From assembly GCA_021770755.1 (NCBI GenBank), contig JAETQI010000006.1:1-64000 (forward strand): 64,000 nt of DNA, written 5' to 3'. Below are positions 7,419-44,405 of this stretch, piece after piece; positions within the stretch are counted from its first letter, which is position 1, and each line of letters opens with the position of its first letter. Origin of the DNA: Lachnospiraceae bacterium. GTDB lineage: Bacteria; Bacillota; Clostridia; Lachnospirales; Lachnospiraceae. Both the position numbers and the translations under genes were made by a program. The notes under the pieces are model-generated. The model searched no databases. It had not been told where the DNA came from and was given only the letters and a program-made list of their open reading frames with translations.

Positions 7419-8159
7419 ATGAAGAAGAAAATCTTTTTAATTGGTTTGGTTACGATAGTGTTGATGGGAATGGTAGCATGTGGGAAAGAAGAACCGGAAG
7501 TAGCGTTAACCGCACAAGTTGAAACACAGTCAGAGATACAGACTGAAAGTGATGTGGAAGAACCTGAGTCTGAGCAGGCAGAACCAGAGAACAGTAATGA
7601 TAAGAGATTCGAATGTCTTCCTGAGATTCAGGAGGCATCGATTGATAGCGGAAAATTTCAAATAGATGATATGGTATTCACGATCGGGGCACCTGTGCAG
7701 GAAATCTTTGATGAATTGGAAAGAAGCGAGTGTGAATATGAATATGATTATACACCTGATGCATTAGTTGCAAATGGACAGGAAATTCGAGTAACTTTTA
7801 AAAAAAATGGTAAAGACTATTTTTATGTCGTTGCTCATAATTTTACAGATACAACAGGTGAATTGAAAGATTGCATCCTTTATGCAACGCAAGTGCTTAC
7901 GACAGAGTCATATGCTTATTATGCAGGAAATATTGCAGATGGTGGTTCATATGATGATATAACCGCAAAATTTGTCGACTGTGAAATATTGAAAGAATAC
8001 TCAGATACTATTAGACAGGAGTATAAGGTAACTTATAAAATTATTACCCCAAATGAAATCATAGAAAGTCAAACGATGGTAAAATATGATGGTTATATAT
8101 TGGAATTGGTATTTGACAGTAATACAAAAATTTTGAAATACTGGTATGCCCGAGCATGA
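7419..8159 (+). CDS. predicted lipoprotein
   Basis: MKKKIFLIGLVTIVLMGMVAC-GKE signal peptide and lipobox. Confidence 0.7.
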   Translation: MKKKIFLIGLVTIVLMGMVACGKEEPEVALTAQVETQSEIQTESDVEEPESEQAEPENSNDKRFECLPEIQEASIDSGKFQIDDMVFTIGAPVQEIFDELERSECEYEYDYTPDALVANGQEIRVTFKKNGKDYFYVVAHNFTDTTGELKDCILYATQVLTTESYAYYAGNIADGGSYDDITAKFVDCEILKEYSDTIRQEYKVTYKIITPNEIIESQTMVKYDGYILELVFDSNTKILKYWYARA

Positions 8160-8232
8160 GAAAATTAAGGCGAGAAGCAGTTCTCGCCTTAATAATTGCT
8201 ACATATGAGCACCCTCTGTCACGAAGAAGTAT

Positions 8233-9324
8233 TTAGCCAGAAAATTCTTGCAATATTTTTATTATAGAGGCACCGTATTTATTAACTTTAACAGAACCAA
8301 AACCAGAAATCTTAAGTAGTTCATCTGGTGTATGGGGCATTTTGGCGATCAGGTTATCCATTTGGGCATTATTGAAAATAAGGTATGGAGCAATTCCTTC
8401 ACGACGACTCTGTTCAAGGCGGAAATCTTTTAAATGTTTGATTAAGATTTCATTATTGTTATTGTCTTCAGTATATGTTGTTTTCATTGGAGTATGGATC
8501 TGTGTAGCCTCTGTTTCGGCAGTGCACGGTAAAATAATTTTCTTTTCATTCGTATTCTGGGAATCCGCGTTTGTAGTACGCAAAAGTTCCTCGTATTTTA
8601 ATGAATAATCAAGCTTGTTGGGTTTATGCTGGCTTAGATAAAATTTAGCAGCTTCTAACATATCTCCATTACTCAGATTATTTTTAGATTCAGAGTCCTT
8701 TTGGCGGATATATGTTATCAGATGATCCGCCCTTATGACTTGTTCTCTGATATCTTTTGGGGCATATTTCATATTAATACAAGTTTCAGGATTGGCGAGA
8801 ACAACGATTGAATGAAAATTGGTATCAAAATTCTTTTCAAAATTCTTTCGTGTAAAAAGATTTTCTCTATAATGCATCCAGATTTCCTTGATTACCTGCA
8901 GGTGTCTCTTATTTTGTGTAACAGGTGAGTACATACCTTTCTTGTAAGACTTGCCAGAATAGTTATAATATCTGATAAATGCTCCAGTATTGTCAATTTC
9001 GATATTGCCGGAGAGCATTTTGCATTCAATGATATAAGTATGTTTTCTAGTAATGACAAGATAATCGATTTGTGCAGACAGATCTTCATATTCCAGATAA
9101 ATATCATGTAATATATACATATCCATTCCACTGTTTTTCAATTCATAAGCAACATTTGATTCGCCCTTTTTTCCATATTTCATCCAACTAATCTGTTTTT
9201 CTATTTCTTTAACAGTACTGCCAGAGGCTTTCTGCGCTAAACCTTGTAATTTTTCGATATATGAATCTGCATCGTAGTTTTCCTTTAAAAACACTGATCC
9301 TATTCGTTTTGAAAATAATCTCAT
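8233..9324 (-). CDS. NERD-domain protein with C-terminal HRDC-like domain
   Basis: GKKGESNVAYELKN...QIDYLVITRKHTYIIECKMLSGNIEID (NERD) and RREGIAPYLIFNNAQMDNLIAKMPHTPDELLKISGFGSVKVNKYG (HRDC). Confidence 0.75.
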   Translation of the reverse strand: MRLFSKRIGSVFLKENYDADSYIEKLQGLAQKASGSTVKEIEKQISWMKYGKKGESNVAYELKNSGMDMYILHDIYLEYEDLSAQIDYLVITRKHTYIIECKMLSGNIEIDNTGAFIRYYNYSGKSYKKGMYSPVTQNKRHLQVIKEIWMHYRENLFTRKNFEKNFDTNFHSIVVLANPETCINMKYAPKDIREQVIRADHLITYIRQKDSESKNNLSNGDMLEAAKFYLSQHKPNKLDYSLKYEELLRTTNADSQNTNEKKIILPCTAETEATQIHTPMKTTYTEDNNNNEILIKHLKDFRLEQSRREGIAPYLIFNNAQMDNLIAKMPHTPDELLKISGFGSVKVNKYGASIIKILQEFSG

Positions 9325-9561
9325 AATTTTTCCGCCTTGTATTTCATTTCTATATTTTTCTCATATAAAATAATTCACCTAGTATAATCCAACATAATTA
9401 ACCATATGTTTGACACGATAAGCAAGCGACAAAAATCTCAACTAAACAGTTTGTTAAACATAGGGCTATTAAAATTGAGTTATACTAGCCATAACACTTC
9501 CTCAGACCAATAACCTTCGTAGGACGTTTACATTTCCAACAGAATTAATGAGGGAAAGGTA

Positions 9562-9942
9562 TTATGTGGCATTTGCCATTGAAGTAGCTTTTCTTTTTTC
9601 TTCGTTATACTGGCTTTTTAATAGTTTTTTTGCTTCGCCAATTAATATATCTTGATTATCTTCATTTAGTGAATTAAATGCATTCATTAGTTTTTGTGCA
9701 GATGGCGATACAGAAATACTCTGATATTGTTCGGGTTTCAATTTTCTATCATTTTTCAATAGAACATCTGCACTAATACAAAAGTAGTCTATCAGAGAAA
9801 CAAAATATTCAAGAGAAGGCGTTCGTTTATTTGTCTCCCAAAGACCAACCAATCCATGACTAATGCAAAGTTTTTGAGCTAATTGTTTTTGGCTAATTTC
9901 ATTTTGGTTGCGCAATTGCGCTATCATATGACCTACTTGCAT
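9562..9942 (-). CDS. XRE-family regulator
   Basis: MIAQLRNQNEISQKQLAQKLCISHGLVGLWETNKRTPSLEYFVSL; ATG after aaaggaggc. Confidence 0.75.
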   Translation of the reverse strand: MQVGHMIAQLRNQNEISQKQLAQKLCISHGLVGLWETNKRTPSLEYFVSLIDYFCISADVLLKNDRKLKPEQYQSISVSPSAQKLMNAFNSLNEDNQDILIGEAKKLLKSQYNEEKRKATSMANAT

Positions 9943-10024
9943 TTTTTTGCCTCCTTTGTACAAATAACAATAACAGAAATAAGGGTTTATAGGGACATAT
10001 TATCAAAAAATCTCACAATATATA

Positions 10025-10054
10025 TTGACATACTTACTTAGAGTGAGCTATAAT
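10025..10054 (+). promoter_or_regulatory. sigma-A promoter for XRE gene at 10153
   Basis: TTGACA-18 bp-TATAAT. Confidence 0.65.
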
Positions 10055-10082
10055 GCATATGTATAGTGAGCAAATGGAATGA

Positions 10083-10111
10083 AATTTCCCATAGCAGAGC
10101 TGCGGGAAATT
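10083..10111 (+). other. stem-loop in 5' UTR, related copy at 22501-22532
   Basis: aatttcccatagc-aga-gctgcgggaaatt. Confidence 0.55.
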
Positions 10112-10152
10112 AGCCCTTGAGAGATTAAAAGTAGGAAAGGACGGATGCATCG

Positions 10153-10449
10153 ATGGAAAAGGGTAGAAAGGTATCAATGTCTGTTTTACGATCTATAAAA
10201 GGTGTATCTCAAAAGCAACTAGCCTATGATATTAATGTAAGTCCAGGATTAATAGGAATGTATGAAACAGGAAAAAGAAAGCCATCATTAGAAAAAGCAA
10301 TAATTATTGCAAAATATTTTAATACTCCAGTTGAAAATATTTTATTTGGCAAATGTGATTGTGTGGAAAAAGTAATTATGGATAGGACAACTTTAGAGCA
10401 AAGCAAGCAGATGACAATATTTGATTTAGATACTCAAAATGGAGATTGA
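10153..10449 (+). CDS. XRE-family regulator
   Basis: SVLRSIKGVSQKQLAYDINVSPGLIGMYETGKRKPSLEKAIIIAKYF. Confidence 0.75.
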   Translation: MEKGRKVSMSVLRSIKGVSQKQLAYDINVSPGLIGMYETGKRKPSLEKAIIIAKYFNTPVENILFGKCDCVEKVIMDRTTLEQSKQMTIFDLDTQNGD

Positions 10450-10535
10450 TCTAAACCAAGTTTAAAGTGTAAAGTGCAGTATTATATACAGCAGGCGTAT
10501 ATCATAATTTTTGATATTAAATTGGGAGGTGTATC

Positions 10536-10688
10536 ATGGAACAGAACCAGACAATTTTTCAGATTTTACAAGAGGTTACAGATGATATGTGTGATAATTT
10601 TTGCAAATATCAGGATACTACAGACGAAGAAGGTGATTGTGACTGGATTCGAAACGGAGGTAAATGTCCGCTGGACAAGATAAATTGA
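10536..10688 (+). CDS. small cysteine-rich accessory protein (50 aa)
   Basis: MEQNQTIFQILQEVTDDMCDNFCKYQDTTDEEGDCDWIRNGGKCPLDKIN; SD gggaggtgtatc; CxxxC...C...CPLDK pattern. Confidence 0.55.
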   Translation: MEQNQTIFQILQEVTDDMCDNFCKYQDTTDEEGDCDWIRNGGKCPLDKIN

Positions 10689-10740
10689 AAGAGACAAAAA
10701 ATTATGAATTCGGAATTTCTTAAGAAGGACAAGAGCGACA

Positions 10741-11085
10741 ATGCAAAGATATGTTAAAAATTGGAACCTGTTGGACACGGCAATCTATTATATCGAGATA
10801 TTTGCTGCCAAGATAAAGCAGCACCTGCATGAAGAGGCAGAGCCGGCAGTGGAGGAGATCATAGATGCGGAGACACAGTATCTGCAGGAAGAGATTATAC
10901 ATTATAGAGCACATCAGCGGCCCGGGTGGATCGTGGACCAGCAGGGAACATACTGTTGTCCGGAATGTAGAAAGGGCATTGCGTCGGAGCTGATCGATGA
11001 CTATAAGATAAAGTATTGCCCAGAATGTGGAAAGCGGATTGTAAAACATCAACCGTTAACGCTGGGAAAAGAGGAGACAGCCTAA
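10741..11085 (+). CDS. zinc-ribbon accessory protein
   Basis: CCPECRKG...KYCPECGKRI. Confidence 0.5.
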   Translation: MQRYVKNWNLLDTAIYYIEIFAAKIKQHLHEEAEPAVEEIIDAETQYLQEEIIHYRAHQRPGWIVDQQGTYCCPECRKGIASELIDDYKIKYCPECGKRIVKHQPLTLGKEETA

Positions 11086-11563
11086 TGTAATGTGAATACA
11101 ATTAATCATTTGAATGAAAAGGCAATCCAAGGGTGGTACTGTCAATCTAAAGGAATGTAAAAAACAATCAAAACAAATAATACAGAGCAATCACATTGTC
11201 CTGGTTATTAAATATCTGCACCTTGACAATTTCATATAGAAAAGTCCGACACGTCCGATATAAGTAGCTTTTTATGCAGTGGGGATTCGCGGAAATCAGA
11301 AATTGACAGTTCTTTTGGGGAATTTATATATCGCACAATTTTGATGGACCACCCTGTTCTGCATGTGGGTGCCTATTGGCACGGCACCCTAGCATTGAGA
11401 TATATCGAGTAGAATAATGATACACCCGCAAAACACGGGCTCCTAGACCGAAGGGAGCGGAGAGAAAACTTCGTGGAGCTTGCCAAAGCCGTCGGCAATT
11501 AATTTGAATGATACAAACTATTATTAGCATACAATAAACCAAATGATAATGGAGGTGGATTTT

Positions 11564-11728
11564 ATGGCGATGATAATGGAAAAATCTTCATCACCATGTA
11601 CAAGTGTATTTGCACATGGTGATGAAGAGCGATCAGAGGCTTTCACGAATCTTTGGATACAGATTATTAATAAAAAAGAAACAGAAAGTCAGATTAACAT
11701 TGCCAACGCTGATGTTTTAGATTTATAA
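11564..11728 (+). CDS. small ORF upstream of serine recombinase
   Basis: SD ggaggtggattttatg; contains 14-bp-arm IR 11586-11627. Confidence 0.45.
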   Translation: MAMIMEKSSSPCTSVFAHGDEERSEAFTNLWIQIINKKETESQINIANADVLDL

Positions 11729-11769
11729 TAAATCTGAGATATTGGTTTGTATTATCTGAGGTTAGTAAT

Positions 11770-13338
11770 ATGAACAATATAGTAGGAATTTACAGCAGGT
11801 TGTCCGAAGAGGATAGAAACAAGCTGAATGAAGATGATGAGAGCCGCAGCATACAGAACCAGAAAAGCCTGCTGATCACGTATGCAACAGATCAGGGGTG
11901 GGATATTTATAATATTTATTCTGATGACGACTACAAAGGAAGCGATCGCAACAGACCAGCATTTAACCAGCTCCTGGCAGATGCGCGGGATCATAAGTTT
12001 AACATCGTACTTTGCAAGTCACAGTCCCGTTTTACGCGGGAACTAGAACTTGTGGAAAAGATTATCCATGGTGATTTTGCAGAGTGGGGGATACGTTTTG
12101 TAGGGCTGGCAGACAATGCCGATACAGCGAACCATGGAAATAAAAAGTCCAGGCAGATCAATGGCCTTGTCAATGAATGGTACTTAGAAGATTTGTCTGA
12201 TAACATAAAGACAGTTCTTACAGACCATCGAAAAAAAGGTATTCACATCGGTGCATTTGCCCCGTATGGATACCAGAAAGATCCGGATCAGAAAGGTCAT
12301 CTGATCATCGATCCGGAGGCGGCTGTAGTTGTGAGGGAAGTGTTTGAACTTTATGCTTCCGGCGTTGGCAGAACGAATATTGCAAGGATTCTGAACGATA
12401 GGGGAATACCTAATCCGACAGAATATAAGCGCAGGAAGGGGCTGCGATACAATGGAGCCGATAAGACGTGTGGTATTCTTTGGAAATATTACGGAGTGTC
12501 TGCCATACTGGAAAATGAAATGTATATTGGTAACATGGTACAGGGAAAATATGCGAATCCTACATACAAGTCCAGACATAGCAAACCAGTTCCGAGAGAA
12601 AAGTGGATCAAGGTGGAAGGAACTCATGAACCAATCATTGACATGGATCTGTGGAATCGTGTGCAGCAGCGCCGCGCAGAGAAGGCAAAACCGTGTTACA
12701 CTGGAGAAATTGGTATATTTGCAGTAAAAACAAAATGTATGTACTGTGGATACACACTTGCAAGCTGCAATAATAGGGGACTGCGGTATTTAAAATGTCC
12801 TACAAGGAATCTGGGTAAACAATTCTGCAAAGGTGCATTTATTGCACAGAGATTCCTAGAGAAAGCGGTTCTTGATGAACTAAATCGTATAATATCAGAA
12901 TATTTTGATGAAACTTCCGCAGAATCAAAGCTTTCGATAACCCGAAATCTTGATACCCGAAAGCAGCAGATGAAAAAAGAGATTTCCAATATGGAGTCAA
13001 AAATAGAGAGTTTAAGGAAAGCTATCCAGAACCTGTATGTTGATAAGGCAAACGGATTAGTTTCGGATAATGAATATATAGAATTTCGCAAGGATTTTTC
13101 AGAGGAAATAGAACGATACAGAAAACTACAGGCGGACAGGACATCAGATCTGGAAGCATTGGAGGCGGAAGGTAAGAATATTCGTTCAAAAGAGGAAATC
13201 TTAAAAAAGTATAAAAATGTATCCAAACTGGATCGGGATATTATGGATTCCCTGATCGACTATATTGAGATAGGACGTTGTGAGAAAAAGGTACACCGGA
13301 ATGATCTGCCGCCGATTGTGATCCACTGGAAATTTTAG
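11770..13338 (+). CDS. large serine recombinase
   Basis: IYSRLSEEDR...SIQNQKSLL resolvase domain, recombinase domain, CMYCGYTLASCNNRGLRYLKC zinc ribbon, coiled coil. Confidence 0.92.
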   Translation: MNNIVGIYSRLSEEDRNKLNEDDESRSIQNQKSLLITYATDQGWDIYNIYSDDDYKGSDRNRPAFNQLLADARDHKFNIVLCKSQSRFTRELELVEKIIHGDFAEWGIRFVGLADNADTANHGNKKSRQINGLVNEWYLEDLSDNIKTVLTDHRKKGIHIGAFAPYGYQKDPDQKGHLIIDPEAAVVVREVFELYASGVGRTNIARILNDRGIPNPTEYKRRKGLRYNGADKTCGILWKYYGVSAILENEMYIGNMVQGKYANPTYKSRHSKPVPREKWIKVEGTHEPIIDMDLWNRVQQRRAEKAKPCYTGEIGIFAVKTKCMYCGYTLASCNNRGLRYLKCPTRNLGKQFCKGAFIAQRFLEKAVLDELNRIISEYFDETSAESKLSITRNLDTRKQQMKKEISNMESKIESLRKAIQNLYVDKANGLVSDNEYIEFRKDFSEEIERYRKLQADRTSDLEALEAEGKNIRSKEEILKKYKNVSKLDRDIMDSLIDYIEIGRCEKKVHRNDLPPIVIHWKF

Positions 13339-13361
13339 TCGTTGGTTGCATATACCAATGT

Positions 13362-13490
13362 GTAGCAGAGCAGAAAGCCCGGACAACGTACGACAATATT
13401 CTCCGCTTGGTCAAGGATCCGGATGTCTGTGATCCGATCAAGTTCCTGCGGGCGAGGGAAATCGTGCATTTCCAGCGGTTTGGCGAAGCG
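13362..13490 (+). pseudogene. cotJC: internal fragment of cotJC-like manganese catalase family gene
   Basis: VAEQKARTTYDNILRLVKDPDVCDPIKFLRAREIVHFQRFGEA, no start codon, frame leaves the family sequence after RFGEA. Confidence 0.8.
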
Positions 13491-19446: not shown

Positions 19447-20976
19447 TTAGATATTCCAGATGATTTTGGTACTGCCGTCTTCGCTTATGATGATCTGGTG
19501 GATCATGATCATAGCGACCTCTTTTTTGCGGTTGTAGTCAGCTGTTTTCCATGATTTGGCAAGATCGATGATGACATCTGTTTCGTCGTCCATACTTTTT
19601 AACTCATCGATCCGTTCATACAGAGCCCGTTTATCGTTTTTAAACTGTGTAGCTTTTTGGTTGGCGAGTGACAGCAAATCTTCGTTAAAACCGCCTGTCA
19701 GCATTGTATCCATAAGCTGCTTCTCTGATCTTTCAATCGCTTTAATCTTTAATTTCAGTTCATTGACTTCGGGAGAATGGTCATTTGCTGTTATATGCTT
19801 TGCTTCCTTCAGATCGGATAGTTTTTCGCAGATACAGTCATAGACCATGTTTTCCAAATCCTCGGCATAGATGGATACTTTTGTCCCAGTACAGATTTTC
19901 TTATGCGTTTTGCCTGTGCAGTTGAAGTAGCGCCGCATTTCGCCACTTTTGTTGATTTTACCTTTGATCGTAGTCATGGTATGCCCGCATTTTTCACAGA
20001 TCACTTTACCGGAGAGCCAGCTGGTCTGATTGCTGTAACTGTTTGTGATCTGTTTATTTTTCTCGAGCTTCCGCTGGCATTTGAGCCAGATATCCGAATC
20101 CACGATGCCGTTATGGGTTAAGAGTACCAGCTTCATGTCAGACCAGTCGGGATTGTCGGGCTTATGCTTGGTATGTCCGTAGAGCTGTGCCCCATATTCC
20201 CCAGTAAACATGGATACATCAGTTACCATCTGAACTCCATGCCGTTCATAGTAATCGTAGATATCGGAATCCGCTTTGACATAGATCGGATTTTTGAGTA
20301 TCGTGGAAAGTTTAGCTGTAGACCATGCACTTCCATTCAGGGGCAGCCTGTTTTCGGCAATCAGGATATTCATCAGACGCCGCAAAGAGACGCTTTCCTG
20401 CGCATAAACCTCATATATGTATCGTATCTGTTCGATCTCCGCGGGAAGGGGACTTAGCTTTTTGGTGTGGATATTATGAATGACTGTGGGGACAAGCTCG
20501 AATCCGTAAGGTTGTCTTCCTCCCATATAAAATCCCATCTCGCTTCGATGGGCGTAAGCCTGGGTGATGCGGTTGATGATGGATGTTCTCTCAAATTCAG
20601 CAAATATCATCAGGATCTTGACAATCAGTTCCCCGTAGGGAGAGGATGTGTCAAAAGACTCCTGTGAGGAGACAAATTCTACTTTATGGGTTTTGAACTC
20701 CTGCAGAATATTGACGAAGTCGGAGAGAGAGCGGCTGATGCGGTCAAGCTTGTAGACAATGACTTTGCTGACCTTATCCTGACGGACGAGATTCATCATC
20801 TTCTGAAAGCCGTCACGATTGATGTTGCCGCCTGAAAAGCCGTTATCCACAAGGGTTATGACCTTTTCGTTCCGCTCGTCCGGTTTGATGACAGACTTGC
20901 AGTATTCAAGCTGGGTTTCACAGCTGATGCTGTTCTCTCGTTCGATTGATTTTCTTGCGTAGAGCACAATTGCCAT
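19447..20976 (-). CDS. large serine recombinase
   Basis: MAIVLYARKSIERENSISCETQLEYC...VIVYKLDRISRSLSDFVN; CEKCGHTMTTIKGK zinc ribbon. Confidence 0.9.
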   Translation of the reverse strand: MAIVLYARKSIERENSISCETQLEYCKSVIKPDERNEKVITLVDNGFSGGNINRDGFQKMMNLVRQDKVSKVIVYKLDRISRSLSDFVNILQEFKTHKVEFVSSQESFDTSSPYGELIVKILMIFAEFERTSIINRITQAYAHRSEMGFYMGGRQPYGFELVPTVIHNIHTKKLSPLPAEIEQIRYIYEVYAQESVSLRRLMNILIAENRLPLNGSAWSTAKLSTILKNPIYVKADSDIYDYYERHGVQMVTDVSMFTGEYGAQLYGHTKHKPDNPDWSDMKLVLLTHNGIVDSDIWLKCQRKLEKNKQITNSYSNQTSWLSGKVICEKCGHTMTTIKGKINKSGEMRRYFNCTGKTHKKICTGTKVSIYAEDLENMVYDCICEKLSDLKEAKHITANDHSPEVNELKLKIKAIERSEKQLMDTMLTGGFNEDLLSLANQKATQFKNDKRALYERIDELKSMDDETDVIIDLAKSWKTADYNRKKEVAMIMIHQIIISEDGSTKIIWNI

Positions 20977-20992
20977 TTTGATACACTTCCTT

Positions 20993-22102
20993 TTAGATAT
21001 TCATCTTTTTTTGTAATACATCCCATTTTGTTGGTTTCCGTTCCTTTATCACTGGTAATTTATGTGGTTCATTTTCTGTGAGATCCAGATCATTCAGCTT
21101 TTTGACAAGCCTTTTATTTCTCTAGCGTTCCTCATAGGAAGCTTTGACAGACTCGCCAAGACTGGATATATAGGAGACGGGGTAATTTAAACCGCTTATG
21201 GCGACCAGTGTACTTCTGCCGTTATAGCCTTCAAATACATTTGTGGGTTTTCCGACTTCTGCTATGATAACATCTTTCTCGATGTCTGAATTGCCTTGTC
21301 CAGCGTGGATGATGGCAATGTTCTCACATATCATATTTTGTTCTACAGGTGCAAAAATCCCATCTCTGGTTAATTTCCGCAGCATGAAAGCCTGATCTAA
21401 GGTCTGGTCCTTTTCTTTTACTCCCATGAGATTGATTACCATCATCCCATTATTTTTTAACATTTCAAGTCTCTCGGCTTCATCAAAGTTATTCAGCTCT
21501 CCATAAGTGTCGTTCGAGAGGAAAGTATCAAGAAACTTTGCGAAAGTGTTATTGATGTATTGATAGTCTTTTTCTTTATGGGCACTATTGGAGATACTGA
21601 AATTATTGTTGATGAAAAATGCTGCACCGAGTCTTATCCCAGATTCGCTGATTTCCTGTAGCTCCTTTACTGCATCATAAGTGTTTTTGTGTTTTTTGAC
21701 GGCCTCGTCAATGGAAGGGAGTGCAATAACCGGACATATTATTTTTGAAGGGTTTCCCTCTTCGTTGGCATCCTGTGCAAGCATTTCAGCTAAGATCGTA
21801 GCGCATCCGCTTCCAAAGGAACCTCCGCCACTGAAAACAAGGAATATGATTTCCTCATCAATATTTGACATAAACCTTAAGAACTCTGGATTCTGTTCAA
21901 GGCATGCCAAAGCTTTTTCACGATCGCCCCCAAATCCATCAAAGCCGTTTAAATGATACTTGGGAATGTCACCAAGTACTTTTAAATCCTGTTCACTTCC
22001 ATTGGCAGCAATCACTTTGTAATTTAGTAAATGGAACTCTTTTACCTGTTTGCCGCCATAGTTTCCCAAACCTATAAATTTGCAGTTGTTCTTTAAATTC
22101 AT
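20993..22102 (-). CDS. TubZ/FtsZ-like partition GTPase; TAG at 21122-21124, frame open to TAA at 20993
   Basis: FIGLGNYGGKQVKEF...VFSGGGSFGSGCATILAEML tubulin-signature-like loop; the supplied ORF ends at 21122 but 42 further sense codons follow in frame. Confidence 0.75.
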
Positions 22103-22371
22103 ACAATTTTTCCTCCTTCGACTGTTTTGATGCCCTTTTCCAAGAGATAAAATGTGTCAGCATGGTTATCAAGGCATCCTTTTTTGATATAACCAGCATT
22201 TGTTAATTTTTGCATTTTTCTGTAAACCGTCATACGGGCTCCAAGCACACCTTCATTATCGTTGATTAAATCCATAATTGTCATGGAATGATATGGATTT
22301 GTGCAGTTGGCATTGTATAAGGAATTTAAAATCATAAATTCCATACGATTTAGTTCGATTATGTCATTCAT
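22099..22371 (-). CDS. winged-HTH TubR-like partition adaptor/repressor
   Basis: MNDIIELNRMEFMILNSLYNANCTNPYHSMTIMDLINDNEGVLGARMTVYRKMQKLTNAGYIKKG; overlaps the TubZ-like start. Confidence 0.65.
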   Translation of the reverse strand: MNDIIELNRMEFMILNSLYNANCTNPYHSMTIMDLINDNEGVLGARMTVYRKMQKLTNAGYIKKGCLDNHADTFYLLEKGIKTVEGGKIV

Positions 22372-22592: not shown

Positions 22593-22748
22593 TTATGTAG
22601 AGACATATTTGCGTGGTCTTGTCAGAGCACGGAACAGTTCTTCGGTGATTTGTTCTTTGCTATTTTTCGTAGCAGATGATAGAATAATATGTTCGACATT
22701 GTGCTTAATCTCTTTGGTGTCAATGTACTCTTTGATTAAATTAGCCAT
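22593..22748 (-). CDS. small accessory protein (51 aa), possibly TnpW-like
   Basis: MANLIKEYIDTKEIKHNVEHIILSSATKNSKEQITEELFRALTRPRKYVST; SD taggaggtttt. Confidence 0.45.
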   Translation of the reverse strand: MANLIKEYIDTKEIKHNVEHIILSSATKNSKEQITEELFRALTRPRKYVST

Positions 22749-23547: not shown

Positions 23548-24324
23548 TTATCGGGACAATTCTAATTCGTATCTGCGTTCTTGGTTCAATTGGTGTTGAA
23601 GAATACGTTCTTCATTATGTTTTTTGATTGCACGTTTTCTGTCACCAGCATTTGTATGTTCACCACGCTGTTCCTTCTGCCAGTCAATACGGCTCAAATG
23701 TATAGTAGGTTCACGGTTTTTTTGACCTTGGATTTCAAGACTTTCATGAGTGACACGTATGTCATATCCATTTCGTTCATAAGCTCTGTTCTGAACTTTT
23801 GCCCAATTCTCACGCCAGATATTGATATATTTGATATTATTTCGCTCACGATCCTTTTTTTTGTTAAAACCATCTGGTCCAACAGTACGTGTTGATACCA
23901 ATATATGGACGTGAGGATTATTTTTGCTTGGTTCAATTTCATTCCTGCCTTCATGGATAGCTGCGATTGTACATAAACCATATTCTGTGAAATTGTTCGT
24001 GACATATTCTTTGACAATATGAATTAATTCGTGAGTAGGGAGTTCATTAGGCAGAGAACCTATAAACTCTCGCGCAGTACGTGCATCGTATCGTTTTTCA
24101 GCCCTGTCGATCTCATCACAGAGATTTTGAAGATTGTGGTACTTTGGTGGAGCTTTTTCAGGTTGAAAAATTTCGTGATAAAGAACATCTTGCCTTTGAC
24201 GATAATAGGTTTTATCATTATAGGTGTCATGGAGTCTTTCGCCACTAATGTAGTGGGCTGCTTTGGTAATAGACCGTCCTTTTCCTCGGCTGATGTTTTT
24301 AATTTCTAAATGAAAATTTGCCAT
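23548..24324 (-). CDS. MobA/MobL family relaxase
   Basis: MANFHLEIKNISRGKGRSITKAAHYISGERLHD...NPHVHILVSTRTV. Confidence 0.9.
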   Translation of the reverse strand: MANFHLEIKNISRGKGRSITKAAHYISGERLHDTYNDKTYYRQRQDVLYHEIFQPEKAPPKYHNLQNLCDEIDRAEKRYDARTAREFIGSLPNELPTHELIHIVKEYVTNNFTEYGLCTIAAIHEGRNEIEPSKNNPHVHILVSTRTVGPDGFNKKKDRERNNIKYINIWRENWAKVQNRAYERNGYDIRVTHESLEIQGQKNREPTIHLSRIDWQKEQRGEHTNAGDRKRAIKKHNEERILQHQLNQERRYELELSR

Positions 24325-24373
24325 AATTAAAATCTCCTTCCGCGTCTGAGCGCTGTCAGATTTTTTGTGTTTG

Positions 24374-24410
24374 GTCCACTTACACATCTGGAGGGATTTT
24401 GTAAGTGGAC
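24374..24410. other. candidate oriT inverted repeat
   Basis: GTCCACTTACA...TGTAAGTGGAC, 50 bp upstream of the relaxase start. Confidence 0.4.
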
Positions 24411-24782: not shown

Positions 24783-26519
24783 CTACAGAAAATTGTTGGT
24801 GTCTGTTCGTGCTACTGTTCTTACTGAGACTACTCGAATACCAGAAGTTTGTCTATTTTCTCTATCTTTTGAGTCTCTTCCAGGAATTGCTCCATCATCA
24901 ATGTGATTTGAGGTATCAATTTGTGTTAATATGTTGTGTGTCGTCGATGTAACTTTTGCAGTAGCGGGAAGTATGGTGTGTTTAGGTAACAAAGGATTTT
25001 CAGCTAAATTGTTATTCAGCTGAAGTTTGTCCACTCGACAGAAGCCGTAAGGCGTAATCAAAGGGATATCTGTCAGGATTGAAAGCTCATGTGGGAAGAC
25101 AATATATTCACGAGTTTCTGTTAGTTGATTACTGTACCCAACAGGATCCATGAGATCGTCGAAACTTTCACTTCTACCGCGGTATGTGACCAGGTGTGTG
25201 CCAATAAGATGGCTGATGTTCTCCTGGGTATCAGCATCATTTGCTCGCAGGACAGCTTGAAATTGACAGTTATCAAGAATAATCCGTCTATCACATGTTC
25301 CGTAAAATTTGTCAATTTGGGCTAAGCTTTGAACTGCCAGGCAGATGTTTATATTCTTGCTCCGCAAAGTTGCTAATGCGTTTGTGATCATTTCCAACTT
25401 TCCAAATCTTGCAAATTCGTCCATGAGCAAAAGCGTTTGGGTATTATCTACCCCCTCTGGACTGTATTGATCAGGTCTGCGCTCTAAGTGGCGTATGAGC
25501 TGTGTATACATGATATTAATTGCACCGCTCCATTCTTCAATCTTTCCAGCAGGAATACATAGAAAAATGTTATTTTCCGTTAAATCATCCCATGTGAAAC
25601 AGTCTGTGTTACTTTGAGTGCTGCGAAAAGCTTTTTGGATATATGGGTCGGTGGCGAAAACAGACAGTTTATTTCGTATCCCTCTGTCGATACAGGCAAT
25701 TTGCTCCGGCTTGAGGTCGAGTAGTTGTCCTAAAAATATTTTGGCCTGTGTATCATTTTCCTCGGATATTTCCTTACTCAATTTGGCAACTGTTGATGAG
25801 GCTATTTTTGTCATGGATTCAATGAAACTGCACCCCAGATGGTAATAATATAACAAGGCTGCTGTGAGTACATTTTGTTCGGATTCAGCCCAGAATGGGT
25901 CGATATTGCCAGGCGGTGTTGGGATAATTGCAAGAACAATCTCCCGTATGTTGCAGATGATGTTCATCTCTCCGTCCTGCGTGACCAAATCAAATGGGTC
26001 ATAGACTGCTCCGTCAAGTTGCATAGGGTCAAAAATTATAAATGGACGTTTAACATATCCACACTGATACAGCTTTTGATAATAGGAAGACAGTTCACCT
26101 TTGATGTCCGTTACACACAGGGCTGCTTTCCAAGTGTATAATGTGGGCTTGATTATGCCAGCGCTTTTTCCGCTGCCGTTGCCCCCTATGATCAGTATGT
26201 TTCCTTCTGTCCCCTGGCGTATGCCGAAAAATTTGTTAAATCCGCAGTTTTTTTTATATCCCATGAAAAAACCTGAGTCAGAATATGTATCAAGAAGCAG
26301 CTGAGTCAGAACGAGGTCTGATTTTAACATCTGCTCCAAGTTATGATCTGGCGACTCGCGGGGTGACATGTCACATACGTCGGGGAAAAGTTTGTCATCG
26401 TCTATTGCTTGGCGATATTTCTTTTTCTGTCTGCGAGAAGAGTTATTTTTCGAATTAGTTATATCGTTGACTATCTTGTTGAGGTGTCGGATGGCTTTTT
26501 TCTCTTTTTTTCTGTCCAT
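24783..26519 (-). CDS. VirD4/TraG-type conjugative coupling ATPase
   Basis: GNILIIGGNGSGKSAGIIKPTLYTW; LLMDEFARFGKLEMITNALATLRSKNINICLAVQSLAQIDKFYG. Confidence 0.9.
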   Translation of the reverse strand: MDRKKEKKAIRHLNKIVNDITNSKNNSSRRQKKKYRQAIDDDKLFPDVCDMSPRESPDHNLEQMLKSDLVLTQLLLDTYSDSGFFMGYKKNCGFNKFFGIRQGTEGNILIIGGNGSGKSAGIIKPTLYTWKAALCVTDIKGELSSYYQKLYQCGYVKRPFIIFDPMQLDGAVYDPFDLVTQDGEMNIICNIREIVLAIIPTPPGNIDPFWAESEQNVLTAALLYYYHLGCSFIESMTKIASSTVAKLSKEISEENDTQAKIFLGQLLDLKPEQIACIDRGIRNKLSVFATDPYIQKAFRSTQSNTDCFTWDDLTENNIFLCIPAGKIEEWSGAINIMYTQLIRHLERRPDQYSPEGVDNTQTLLLMDEFARFGKLEMITNALATLRSKNINICLAVQSLAQIDKFYGTCDRRIILDNCQFQAVLRANDADTQENISHLIGTHLVTYRGRSESFDDLMDPVGYSNQLTETREYIVFPHELSILTDIPLITPYGFCRVDKLQLNNNLAENPLLPKHTILPATAKVTSTTHNILTQIDTSNHIDDGAIPGRDSKDRENRQTSGIRVVSVRTVARTDTNNFL

Positions 26520-41456: not shown

Positions 41457-42275
41457 ATGTCAACAACAAAACAGCATGAGGAAGATCTGCAGCGTCTGTC
41501 ACAGCTGAGACCCATAGATGACGACTTTATGCGTTGTCTTTTTAAGGATAATATTCCATTAGCTGAACTTGTGCTGCGTATTATTACAGACAGGAAAGAT
41601 CTGGTCATTACTGACTGTGAGACACAGCGGGACATGAAACGGCTGGCAGGGGCACGGTCCATCTGTCTGGATGCGTATGGAACGGATTCAGATGGGAAAA
41701 AGTACGATTTAGAAATACAGAAGGCTGGTGATGGGGCAGATCCACACAGGGCAAGATACCATTCCAGTGTACTGGATGTGGAGAACCTGCATTCCGGGCA
41801 GGAGTTTAAAGAGCTGCCGGATACGTATACTATATTTATTACGGAGAGAGACTTTTACGGAATGGGGGAGCCAGTCTATCCAATAGAGCGTATGAACCTT
41901 GCAACAGGGAAGCTTTTTGCAGATGGAGAATATATTCTGTATGTTAATGGGAAGTATCGCGGAGACTCAGAACTGGGAAAGCTCATGCATGATTTTAACT
42001 GCATGAGTGCAGACGATATGGAGTTTGAACTGATGGCAGAACGCACGCGGTATCTAAAAGAAGATCCGAAGGGAGTGAGTATGATGTGTAAAATTATGGA
42101 GGATATGAGGAATGAATCTTTGAAAGAAGGGATAAAAGAAGGGATAAAAGAAGGTGCAATAAGTACAGCTAAGCGAATGATAACTGTAGGAAAATATGCT
42201 TTGGAGGAGATTGTGAACATTTCAGGGCTTACTGTTGACGAAGTACAGAAGCTACAGGCAGATAAAAATGCATAA
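41457..42275 (+). CDS. Rpn family recombination-promoting nuclease/putative transposase
   Basis: MSTTKQHEEDLQRLSQLRPIDDDFMRCLFKDNIPLAELVLRIIT...LDAYGTDSDGKKYDLEIQ. Confidence 0.87.
   Translation: MSTTKQHEEDLQRLSQLRPIDDDFMRCLFKDNIPLAELVLRIITDRKDLVITDCETQRDMKRLAGARSICLDAYGTDSDGKKYDLEIQKAGDGADPHRARYHSSVLDVENLHSGQEFKELPDTYTIFITERDFYGMGEPVYPIERMNLATGKLFADGEYILYVNGKYRGDSELGKLMHDFNCMSADDMEFELMAERTRYLKEDPKGVSMMCKIMEDMRNESLKEGIKEGIKEGAISTAKRMITVGKYALEEIVNISGLTVDEVQKLQADKNA
42084..42275 (+). CDS. possible internally initiated Rpn C-terminal product (63 aa)
   Basis: AAGGGAG-8 nt-ATG in frame: MCKIMEDMRNESLKEGIKEGIKEG... Confidence 0.4.
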   Translation: MCKIMEDMRNESLKEGIKEGIKEGAISTAKRMITVGKYALEEIVNISGLTVDEVQKLQADKNA

Positions 42276-43020: not shown

Positions 43021-43227
43021 ATGGAACGTCAAAAAAGGAAAATAGACATTAATGATTATAATAATTTGCCTGGCTTTTTGAGAATAGAAGTTATTGACGG
43101 TGAAATATATACAGATGACTGGACAATGCTGGAGATTGATGAAGACGTGTTTAACATACCAGCAACCGAGAATAGAAAGATAAAATATAGGCTGTCGATC
43201 GTAGAGATTGAAGAGAAGGAAACATGA
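43021..43227 (+). CDS. hypothetical protein upstream of Rpn-like gene
   Basis: Start MERQKRKIDINDYNN; stop overlaps the next ORF (ATGA). Confidence 0.5.
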   Translation: MERQKRKIDINDYNNLPGFLRIEVIDGEIYTDDWTMLEIDEDVFNIPATENRKIKYRLSIVEIEEKET

Positions 43228-43247
43228 AGAGAAGAAATAATGAGGTG

Positions 43248-44262
43248 ATGAGTATGGGAAGGCTGGATATCCTCACAAAAGAATATGTGAAACAACCATC
43301 TGTGTTTGCAGATGTTTTCAATCAGTTTCTATATCATGGTCGGCAGGTCATTGATCCTGACAGACTGGTTGAAATTGATACTACGGAGATTGCGGTTCCG
43401 TATGGGTCGGATCGGGCATCTGTACCAGAGCAGCGATACCGCGATGTGTTAAAAATGCTGATGACCATGACAGATGGATCGGTTGCTTATTGCTTACTGG
43501 CAGTGGAGAATGAAGGAAAGATCAATTATGCTATGCCTGTGAAGGACGGATTATATGATTTTCTACAGCTTGCACATCAGGTAACAAAAGCTTCCAATTC
43601 TCATAAGGATACAAAGTCGAAAGATCATAAACCATCAGGGGATGAGTTTTTAAGCGGTTTCTGGAAAAGTGACAGGCTGCTCCCAGTGATGACAATTGTC
43701 ATATATTTTGGAGTAGAAGAGTGGGATGGGCCATTGAGCCTGCGGGAAATGTATACAGACTGTGACGAGGAAGTTCTTAAATGTGTTGCGGATTACCGCA
43801 TCAATTTGATAACACCCAGAGGATTGTCAGACAATCAAATTGATGAATTTCAAACAAATATGCGGGAGATAATGAAATACATTAAGTATTCAAATGATAA
43901 AAAGAAACTTAATGAAATTATCGGTACGGAGGTTCAAAAATGTAGAAAGAAGCGCAGTTGAGATTATCAATGCGGTAACAAATTCCAATATGAAGATTGA
44001 TGAGGGAAAGGAGACAGTTGATATGTGTCTTGCAATACAGGAAATGAGAGAGGAAAGTAGGCTCGAAGGAGTAAAAGAAGGAAGAAATGAAGGAAGAAAA
44101 GAAGGAAGAAATGAAGGAAGAAATGAAGGTGAAATCATAGGTGCAATTACCTTTGCACAAGAGTTAGGTGTTTCAAGAGAAGATGTGAAAAAGTCTTTTA
44201 TGATCAAGTATAAAAAGACGAATGAGGAGACGGAAGAGATTATGAAATTATACTGGAAGTAA
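43248..44262 (+). pseudogene. Rpn/transposase_31-like gene with a single frameshift
   Basis: ORF 43248-43961 continues in another frame (NVERSAVEIINAVTNSNMKI...KEGRNEGRKEG) after caaaaatg at ~43935. Confidence 0.7.
44023..44262 (+). CDS. possible free-standing/internal Rpn C-terminal product (79 aa)
   Basis: AAAGGAG-9 nt-ATG TGT CTT GCA...; in frame with the downstream half of the frameshifted gene. Confidence 0.4.
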   Translation: MCLAIQEMREESRLEGVKEGRNEGRKEGRNEGRNEGEIIGAITFAQELGVSREDVKKSFMIKYKKTNEETEEIMKLYWK

Positions 44263-44324: not shown

Positions 44325-44405
44325 TTCGGCGAAGCCCTCCGCATCGCGCAGGAGAACCTTGACTCGCGCAACTTCTACGCATTCAACCCGGAATTTGACA
44401 AGTAA
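44325..44405 (+). pseudogene. cotJC: 3'-terminal fragment of cotJC-like gene
   Basis: FGEALRIAQENLDSRNFYAFNPEFDK*; continues the protein that breaks at 13490. Confidence 0.78.

Follow-up and report, generated by a model that had tools for sequence, protein, structure and literature searches.

A spore-coat gene in three pieces

The window analysed here is a stretch of 64,000 nucleotides from a Lachnospiraceae bacterium (genome G000). It carries two of the three in-frame parts into which the spore-coat gene cotJC has been split by a pair of different mobile elements, referred to as A (left) and B (right) (Table 1). The open reading frame (ORF) of a large serine recombinase (LSR) belonging to element A stops at 13338, and in-frame cotJC coding sequence resumes 26 nt further on, at 13365, without a start codon. 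This middle piece aligns over 42 codons with an intact cotJC paralogue on contig C3 of the same genome (E 7e-17) and matches the joined gene at 100%. Position 1 of the window is also the first base of contig C9, which has no sequence further left. The 5' piece was found, with the second copy of the GCAGA att core, on contig C68, where it is preceded by cotJB.

Joining the three pieces at GCAGA and GGCGAAGC restores an intact CotJC of 198 aa without a stop or frameshift. The intact CotJC of genus-mates also has 198 aa and is 97–98% identical over its full length; cotJC therefore has no natural start at 13365. Both flanks agree with this reconstruction, in that cotJB and a CAAX protease lie 5' of intact cotJC in relatives, and the next genes after the 3' piece are FprA and NhaP both in one relative (L087) and in the window, from 44634. 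The assembly is of metagenome type (4.74 Mb, 122 contigs, 3.76% contamination). The original prediction, made from the sequence alone, had claimed that cotJC resumes shortly after the recombinase without a start codon and that the gene was hit twice. Both claims held, and the anatomy of the twice-cut cotJC is firmly established.

Table 1. Features of the divided cotJC locus and of elements A and B. Positions refer to the window unless a contig is named.
Feature	Position	Strand	Remarks
cotJC 5' piece	C68:57275 to about 57681-57691		Codons 1-135; 139-aa ORF; PF05067 search of the genome
Element A, left part	C68:57682-77480		19.8 kb, to contig end; middle of A unassembled
Element A, right part	1-13369	+	ICE-like; start of contig C9; collinear with G004
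Sigma-E-like -10 box CATACAAT	11528-11535	+	5' of the small ORF of A; motif class enriched in the family
Small ORF of A	11564-11728	+	54 aa, conserved; candidate recombination directionality factor
LSR A	11770-13338	+	522 aa; Pfam Resolvase/Recombinase/Zn_ribbon; targets cotJC codon 135
attR core of A, GCAGA	13365-13369	+	attL copy at C68:57677-57681
cotJC middle piece	13370-13489 (13365-13489 with core)	+	Codons 135-176; PF05067 match above cut-off
attL core of B, GGCGAAGC	13482-13489	+	8-bp repeat, same as at 44328-44335
Element B	13490-44335	+	30.8 kb, apparently mobilizable; between two cotJC pieces
LSR B	19447-20976	-	509 aa; targets cotJC codon 176; unrelated to LSR A
TubZ-like GTPase	21122-22102	-	Between small ORF of B and LSR B; Pfam TubZ_C_3, E 1.5e-11
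Small ORF of B	22593-22748	-	51 aa; candidate directionality factor; equivalent directly 5' of the LSR in L050, L168, L207-L211
MobA/MobL relaxase of B	23548-24387	-	Pfam E 3.4e-43
T4SS coupling protein (VirD4/TraG) of B	24783-26519	-	Pfam E 8e-41
attR core of B, GGCGAAGC	44328-44335	+	8-bp repeat
cotJC 3' end	44336-44405	+	Last 22 codons and stop codon; tblastn of the window; nucleotide match to the same region in intact relatives

Two elements with separate recombinases

The integrase and conjugation-type genes recognised in element A encode the LSR, ParA, a T4SS coupling protein and a TrbL/VirB6-like protein, the middle of the element being unassembled. A complete relative of about 36.6 kb in genome G004 matches C68:57.7–77.5 kb with its left part and C9 10.7–13.3 kb with its right end. 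This collinearity supports the further claim of the original prediction that the first 13.36 kb of the window are the right end of an element extending to the left. The reconstructed attP of A is an imperfect inverted repeat around GTAGCA-GA-TGCTAC.

Which element is moved by the recombinase at 11770 had been left as an open question. Of the 80 nearest relatives of the enzyme in bacterial genomes, 71 sit with a cotJC cut at codons 133–136, and on this ground it is assigned to the left element; the assignment is supported by this comparative association and not by an assay. Hosts of these relatives include Lachnospiraceae, Oscillospiraceae, Erysipelotrichaceae and others. Of its solved relatives, LSR A is closest to YokA, which we take to be the SPbeta integrase, also called SprA. 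A phage origin of LSR A is argued against by the scarcity of its relatives in viral contigs: there were 10, a single one of them exceeding 35% identity.

In element B, the integrase and mobilization-type genes recognised are those for the LSR, MobA and the VirD4-like protein, no systematic search for a complete T4SS having been made. The reconstructed attP of B carries the inverted arms TACTTAA/TTAAGTA. LSR B is 90% identical to the LSR of an element in G027 that starts at the same cotJC codon (176), and its other close relatives (n=5; L168, L207, L208, L209, L210) adjoin cotJC cut at codons 173–177. Element B thus has its own recombinase and the LSR at 11770 belongs to A, again by comparative inference without an assay.

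Several further genes were observed in passing. Element A holds a lone type I-C Cas7/Csd2 gene (3914–4750, plus strand; TIGR02589, E 1.6e-74), with no other cas gene noticed, short of a dedicated search, among the neighbouring ORFs. PD-(D/E)XK transposase-like and YhgA-like genes lie on the plus strand near the contig start (1701–2516) and at the right end of B (41457–42275 and 43224–43961). Within B, two genes (21122–22371, minus strand) separate the small ORF from the LSR, namely that of the TubZ-like GTPase and one for a small protein that has no more than weak winged-helix matches; in relatives the small ORF and the LSR are adjacent. Two neighbouring AAA-ATPase/PD-(D/E)XK proteins (PF09820/PF08011; 16100–19418, plus strand) end about 30 bp from the LSR B stop. 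Elsewhere in the genome, several LSR genes are clustered on contigs C99 and C101.

cotJC as a multi-site target

Among 144 relatives of this genome, cotJC fragments start or end repeatedly near codons 25–30, 62, 135 and 177. Many other gut bacteria share these few cutting places. Recombinases of four or more clades use the sites near codons 62, 135 and 177. In a quick maximum-likelihood tree built from 70 LSRs, in which long branches were flagged, the codon-135 group, the codon-176 group and two codon-62 groups stand apart. The tree requires 10 changes of site label against 36 expected, and none of 200 shuffles was as clustered. The sequences themselves show that cotJC lies in three intact in-frame pieces, that direct repeats form the cores and that each clade of recombinases is consistently paired with a particular codon.

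Each insertion also occurs without the other. In G014/L087 and G011 the gene is cut at codon 135 and uncut at codon 176, and the reverse holds in G027. The double cut at codon 135 and about codons 176–178 is repeated on single contigs in L122 and L156/G497, and G009 has a 61 and 178 double cut on one contig; contig breaks are therefore no explanation. Altogether, a second cut, after FGEA or the corresponding residues, is present in six of the 53 3' fragments that begin at codon 135, that of the window among them. At the other extreme of size are near-minimal inserts: three codon-178 elements of 2.16, 2.55 and 2.68 kb contain little beyond a small ORF and an LSR, and the insert in L112 measures 3.2 kb. 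Where the LSR lies at the left end of an insert, an inverted insertion was ruled out because the attL sequence is the same and only the position of the gene differs.

Two of the family-A loci outside cotJC were noted separately. At L154:6555–6945 the LSR adjoins part of the gene for a germination-specific (Csp-type) protease, which comes immediately after it and in frame; this would appear to be another sporulation gene used as a target. At L096:6543–7416 (Holdemanella biformis) it is joined to a PTS IID-like gene, assigned by eye, which is an exception to the sporulation-gene pattern.

Signs of function

The 3' fragments lack a start codon, and all 53 that were testable are free of premature stops, running to the natural end or to the second cut. 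Their pN/pS is about 0.03–0.11 in pairs where the LSR (element) and host genes have diverged to a similar degree. At least one element has moved between hosts recently (L129/L131; LSR dS 0.03 vs cotJC dS 0.77), and the conservation of the fragments may therefore partly predate insertion. Eleven genomes have a split cotJC and no intact copy found at more than 50% identity, their assembly completeness not being given.

At 76 of the 78 family-A loci that could be tested, the LSR has a small ORF, of about 36–70 aa in most cases, directly 5' of it, and unrelated small ORFs occupy the same place in codon-176/178 elements. The conserved 54-aa ORF of A has no convincing match in Pfam, PHROG or NCBIfam. 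These conserved small ORFs are candidate directionality factors, a role in excision that is inferred from sequence alone.

In family A, 29 of the 75 loci have the motif ATA-N16-18-CATANNNT 5' of the small ORF (1.7 expected), and 9 of its 27 divergent representatives do so (0.56 expected); expectations were obtained from first-order Markov shuffles, and the loci share ancestry. Within the B/178 family, 9 of 18 cotJC inserts carry the motif vs 1 of 16 others (Fisher p 0.008). The motif fits the sigma-E promoters of C. difficile, whose -35 element is ATA and whose -10 boxes include CATATTAT (PMC3789822), and CATANNNT is found upstream of cotJA itself in all 28 loci (10.8 expected). Within the window, the putative promoter of A has a perfect -10 box and a weak -35 element (ATG), and no sigma-E-like motif was found upstream of the small ORF of element B. 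Outside cotJC, the motif occurs in four of seven family-A loci, and there it is therefore a trait of the family that is not tied to cotJC. A sigma-K reading (AC-N16-18-CATA) was unsupported (2 vs 1.3 expected), and sigma-A hexamers showed no clear enrichment upstream.

Searches of 194 relatives and of viral contigs with a short pattern gave no convincing circular junction (attP) of A, only chance matches; neither LSR A nor cotJC lay near any of the 90 attP-pattern loci checked. The codon-178 attL pattern had no match in viral contigs.

Relation to known intervening elements

The closest parallel is skin, the sigK-intervening element of Bacillus subtilis and Clostridioides difficile. Like skin, the cotJC elements divide a sporulation gene, carry their own site-specific recombinase and are bounded by short direct repeats, so that their removal restores the frame; in both cases the insert carries an LSR and the gene acts in the mother cell. 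In C. difficile, skin excision requires an LSR together with a small directionality factor controlled by sigma-E and SpoIIID (PMC5025042), for which the cotJC elements offer only a candidate ORF and a promoter motif. Unlike skin, the target is a coat catalase-like gene and not a sigma factor, several sites are used in one gene, the inserts are ICE-like or near-minimal rather than prophage remnants, and excision is undemonstrated.

The known intervened sporulation genes are sigK, spsM, spoVFB, gerE and yabG. The elements SPbeta/spsM, vfbin/spoVFB, gin/gerE and yin/yabG (PMC4191935, PMC5595907, PMC10747680) are each described, unlike those of cotJC, as a single insertion per gene. cotJC as a target was unreported in the literature searched, which left most subscription journals out of scope. 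Several independent elements in one gene are known from heterocysts, where up to four interrupt one nifD and excision takes place in the differentiated cell (PMC4874684). Those elements differ in that they belong to cyanobacteria and to nitrogen fixation genes, with no spore or mother cell involved.

Proposed mechanism

Our preferred reading is that two unrelated elements, A with core GCAGA at codon 135 and B with core GGCGAAGC at codon 176, were each inserted by their own LSR, and that they behave as skin-like elements excised in the mother cell. Taken as a whole this reading is likely, its excision step being inferred and untested. In the sporulating mother cell, sigma-E would turn on both the recombinase and the small protein that probably serves as its directionality factor. 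The two would excise the element, cotJC would be rebuilt for coat assembly, and the copy passed on through the forespore would retain the insertion.

The strength of the excision step depends on how widely it is applied. For the family as a whole we lean towards mother-cell excision, as an inference with no excision observed. For this genome we lean slightly against it, because element B lacks a sigma-E-like promoter and an intact cotJC paralogue is present on C3. Excision of A here is plausible, and that of B is without support from the promoter motif; both statements are inferences. Given the intact paralogue, the cotJC copy studied here may be dispensable.

Alternative explanations

The most serious rival takes cotJC for no more than a safe landing site: a sporulation-only gene, conserved and often backed by a paralogue, at which several recombinases insert their elements and no regulated rebuilding follows. 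In its favour, A and B resemble ordinary conjugative or mobilizable elements, an intact paralogue is present in G000, G066, G228 and G292, and horizontal movement has been seen. However, the uninterrupted 3' fragments (53 of 53), the minimal 2–3 kb inserts, the mother-cell-type promoter motifs and the genomes in which no intact copy was found speak against it. We regard it as less probable than not, and it remains open.

That the recombinase at 11770 moves both elements, A and B forming a tandem array, is suggested by the place of LSR A between them, with some 150 bp separating it from where B starts on the left. This is very unlikely and was rejected on cores and relatives: the cores (GCAGA vs GGCGAAGC) and arms differ, B has an LSR of its own with close relatives that target codon 176, and in other genomes either insertion can be found without the other. 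An assembly or binning artefact joining unrelated contigs, which the 122 contigs, the contamination and the split of A over two contigs might suggest, is all but excluded, as a single contig spans the B insertion, unrelated assemblies repeat these arrangements without a contig break and the complete A relative in G004 is collinear.

Implications

The skin-like reading can be taken further. In its bolder form, cotJC in Clostridia would be a DNA-splicing hub, from which two insertions at once would be removed in the mother cell by independent pairs of recombinase and directionality factor, the smallest elements having shrunk to intron-like units of 2–3 kb kept only for excision on cue. We hold this inferred version to be slightly less likely than not.

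If the skin-like reading is true, a new and apparently widespread target would join the handful of sporulation genes rebuilt by developmental excision. Carriers of a cut cotJC include the cultured, harmless Parablautia intestinalis (L105), whose strain D8-82 has a 7.2-kb insert in the gene. Under the same reading, one short gene of spore formers would hold several independent elements, as nifD does in cyanobacteria, and near-minimal modules of a recombinase and a small protein would exist with predicted developmental control. A general question would also become testable, namely why selfish elements come to lie in genes that serve only a cell close to its own death.
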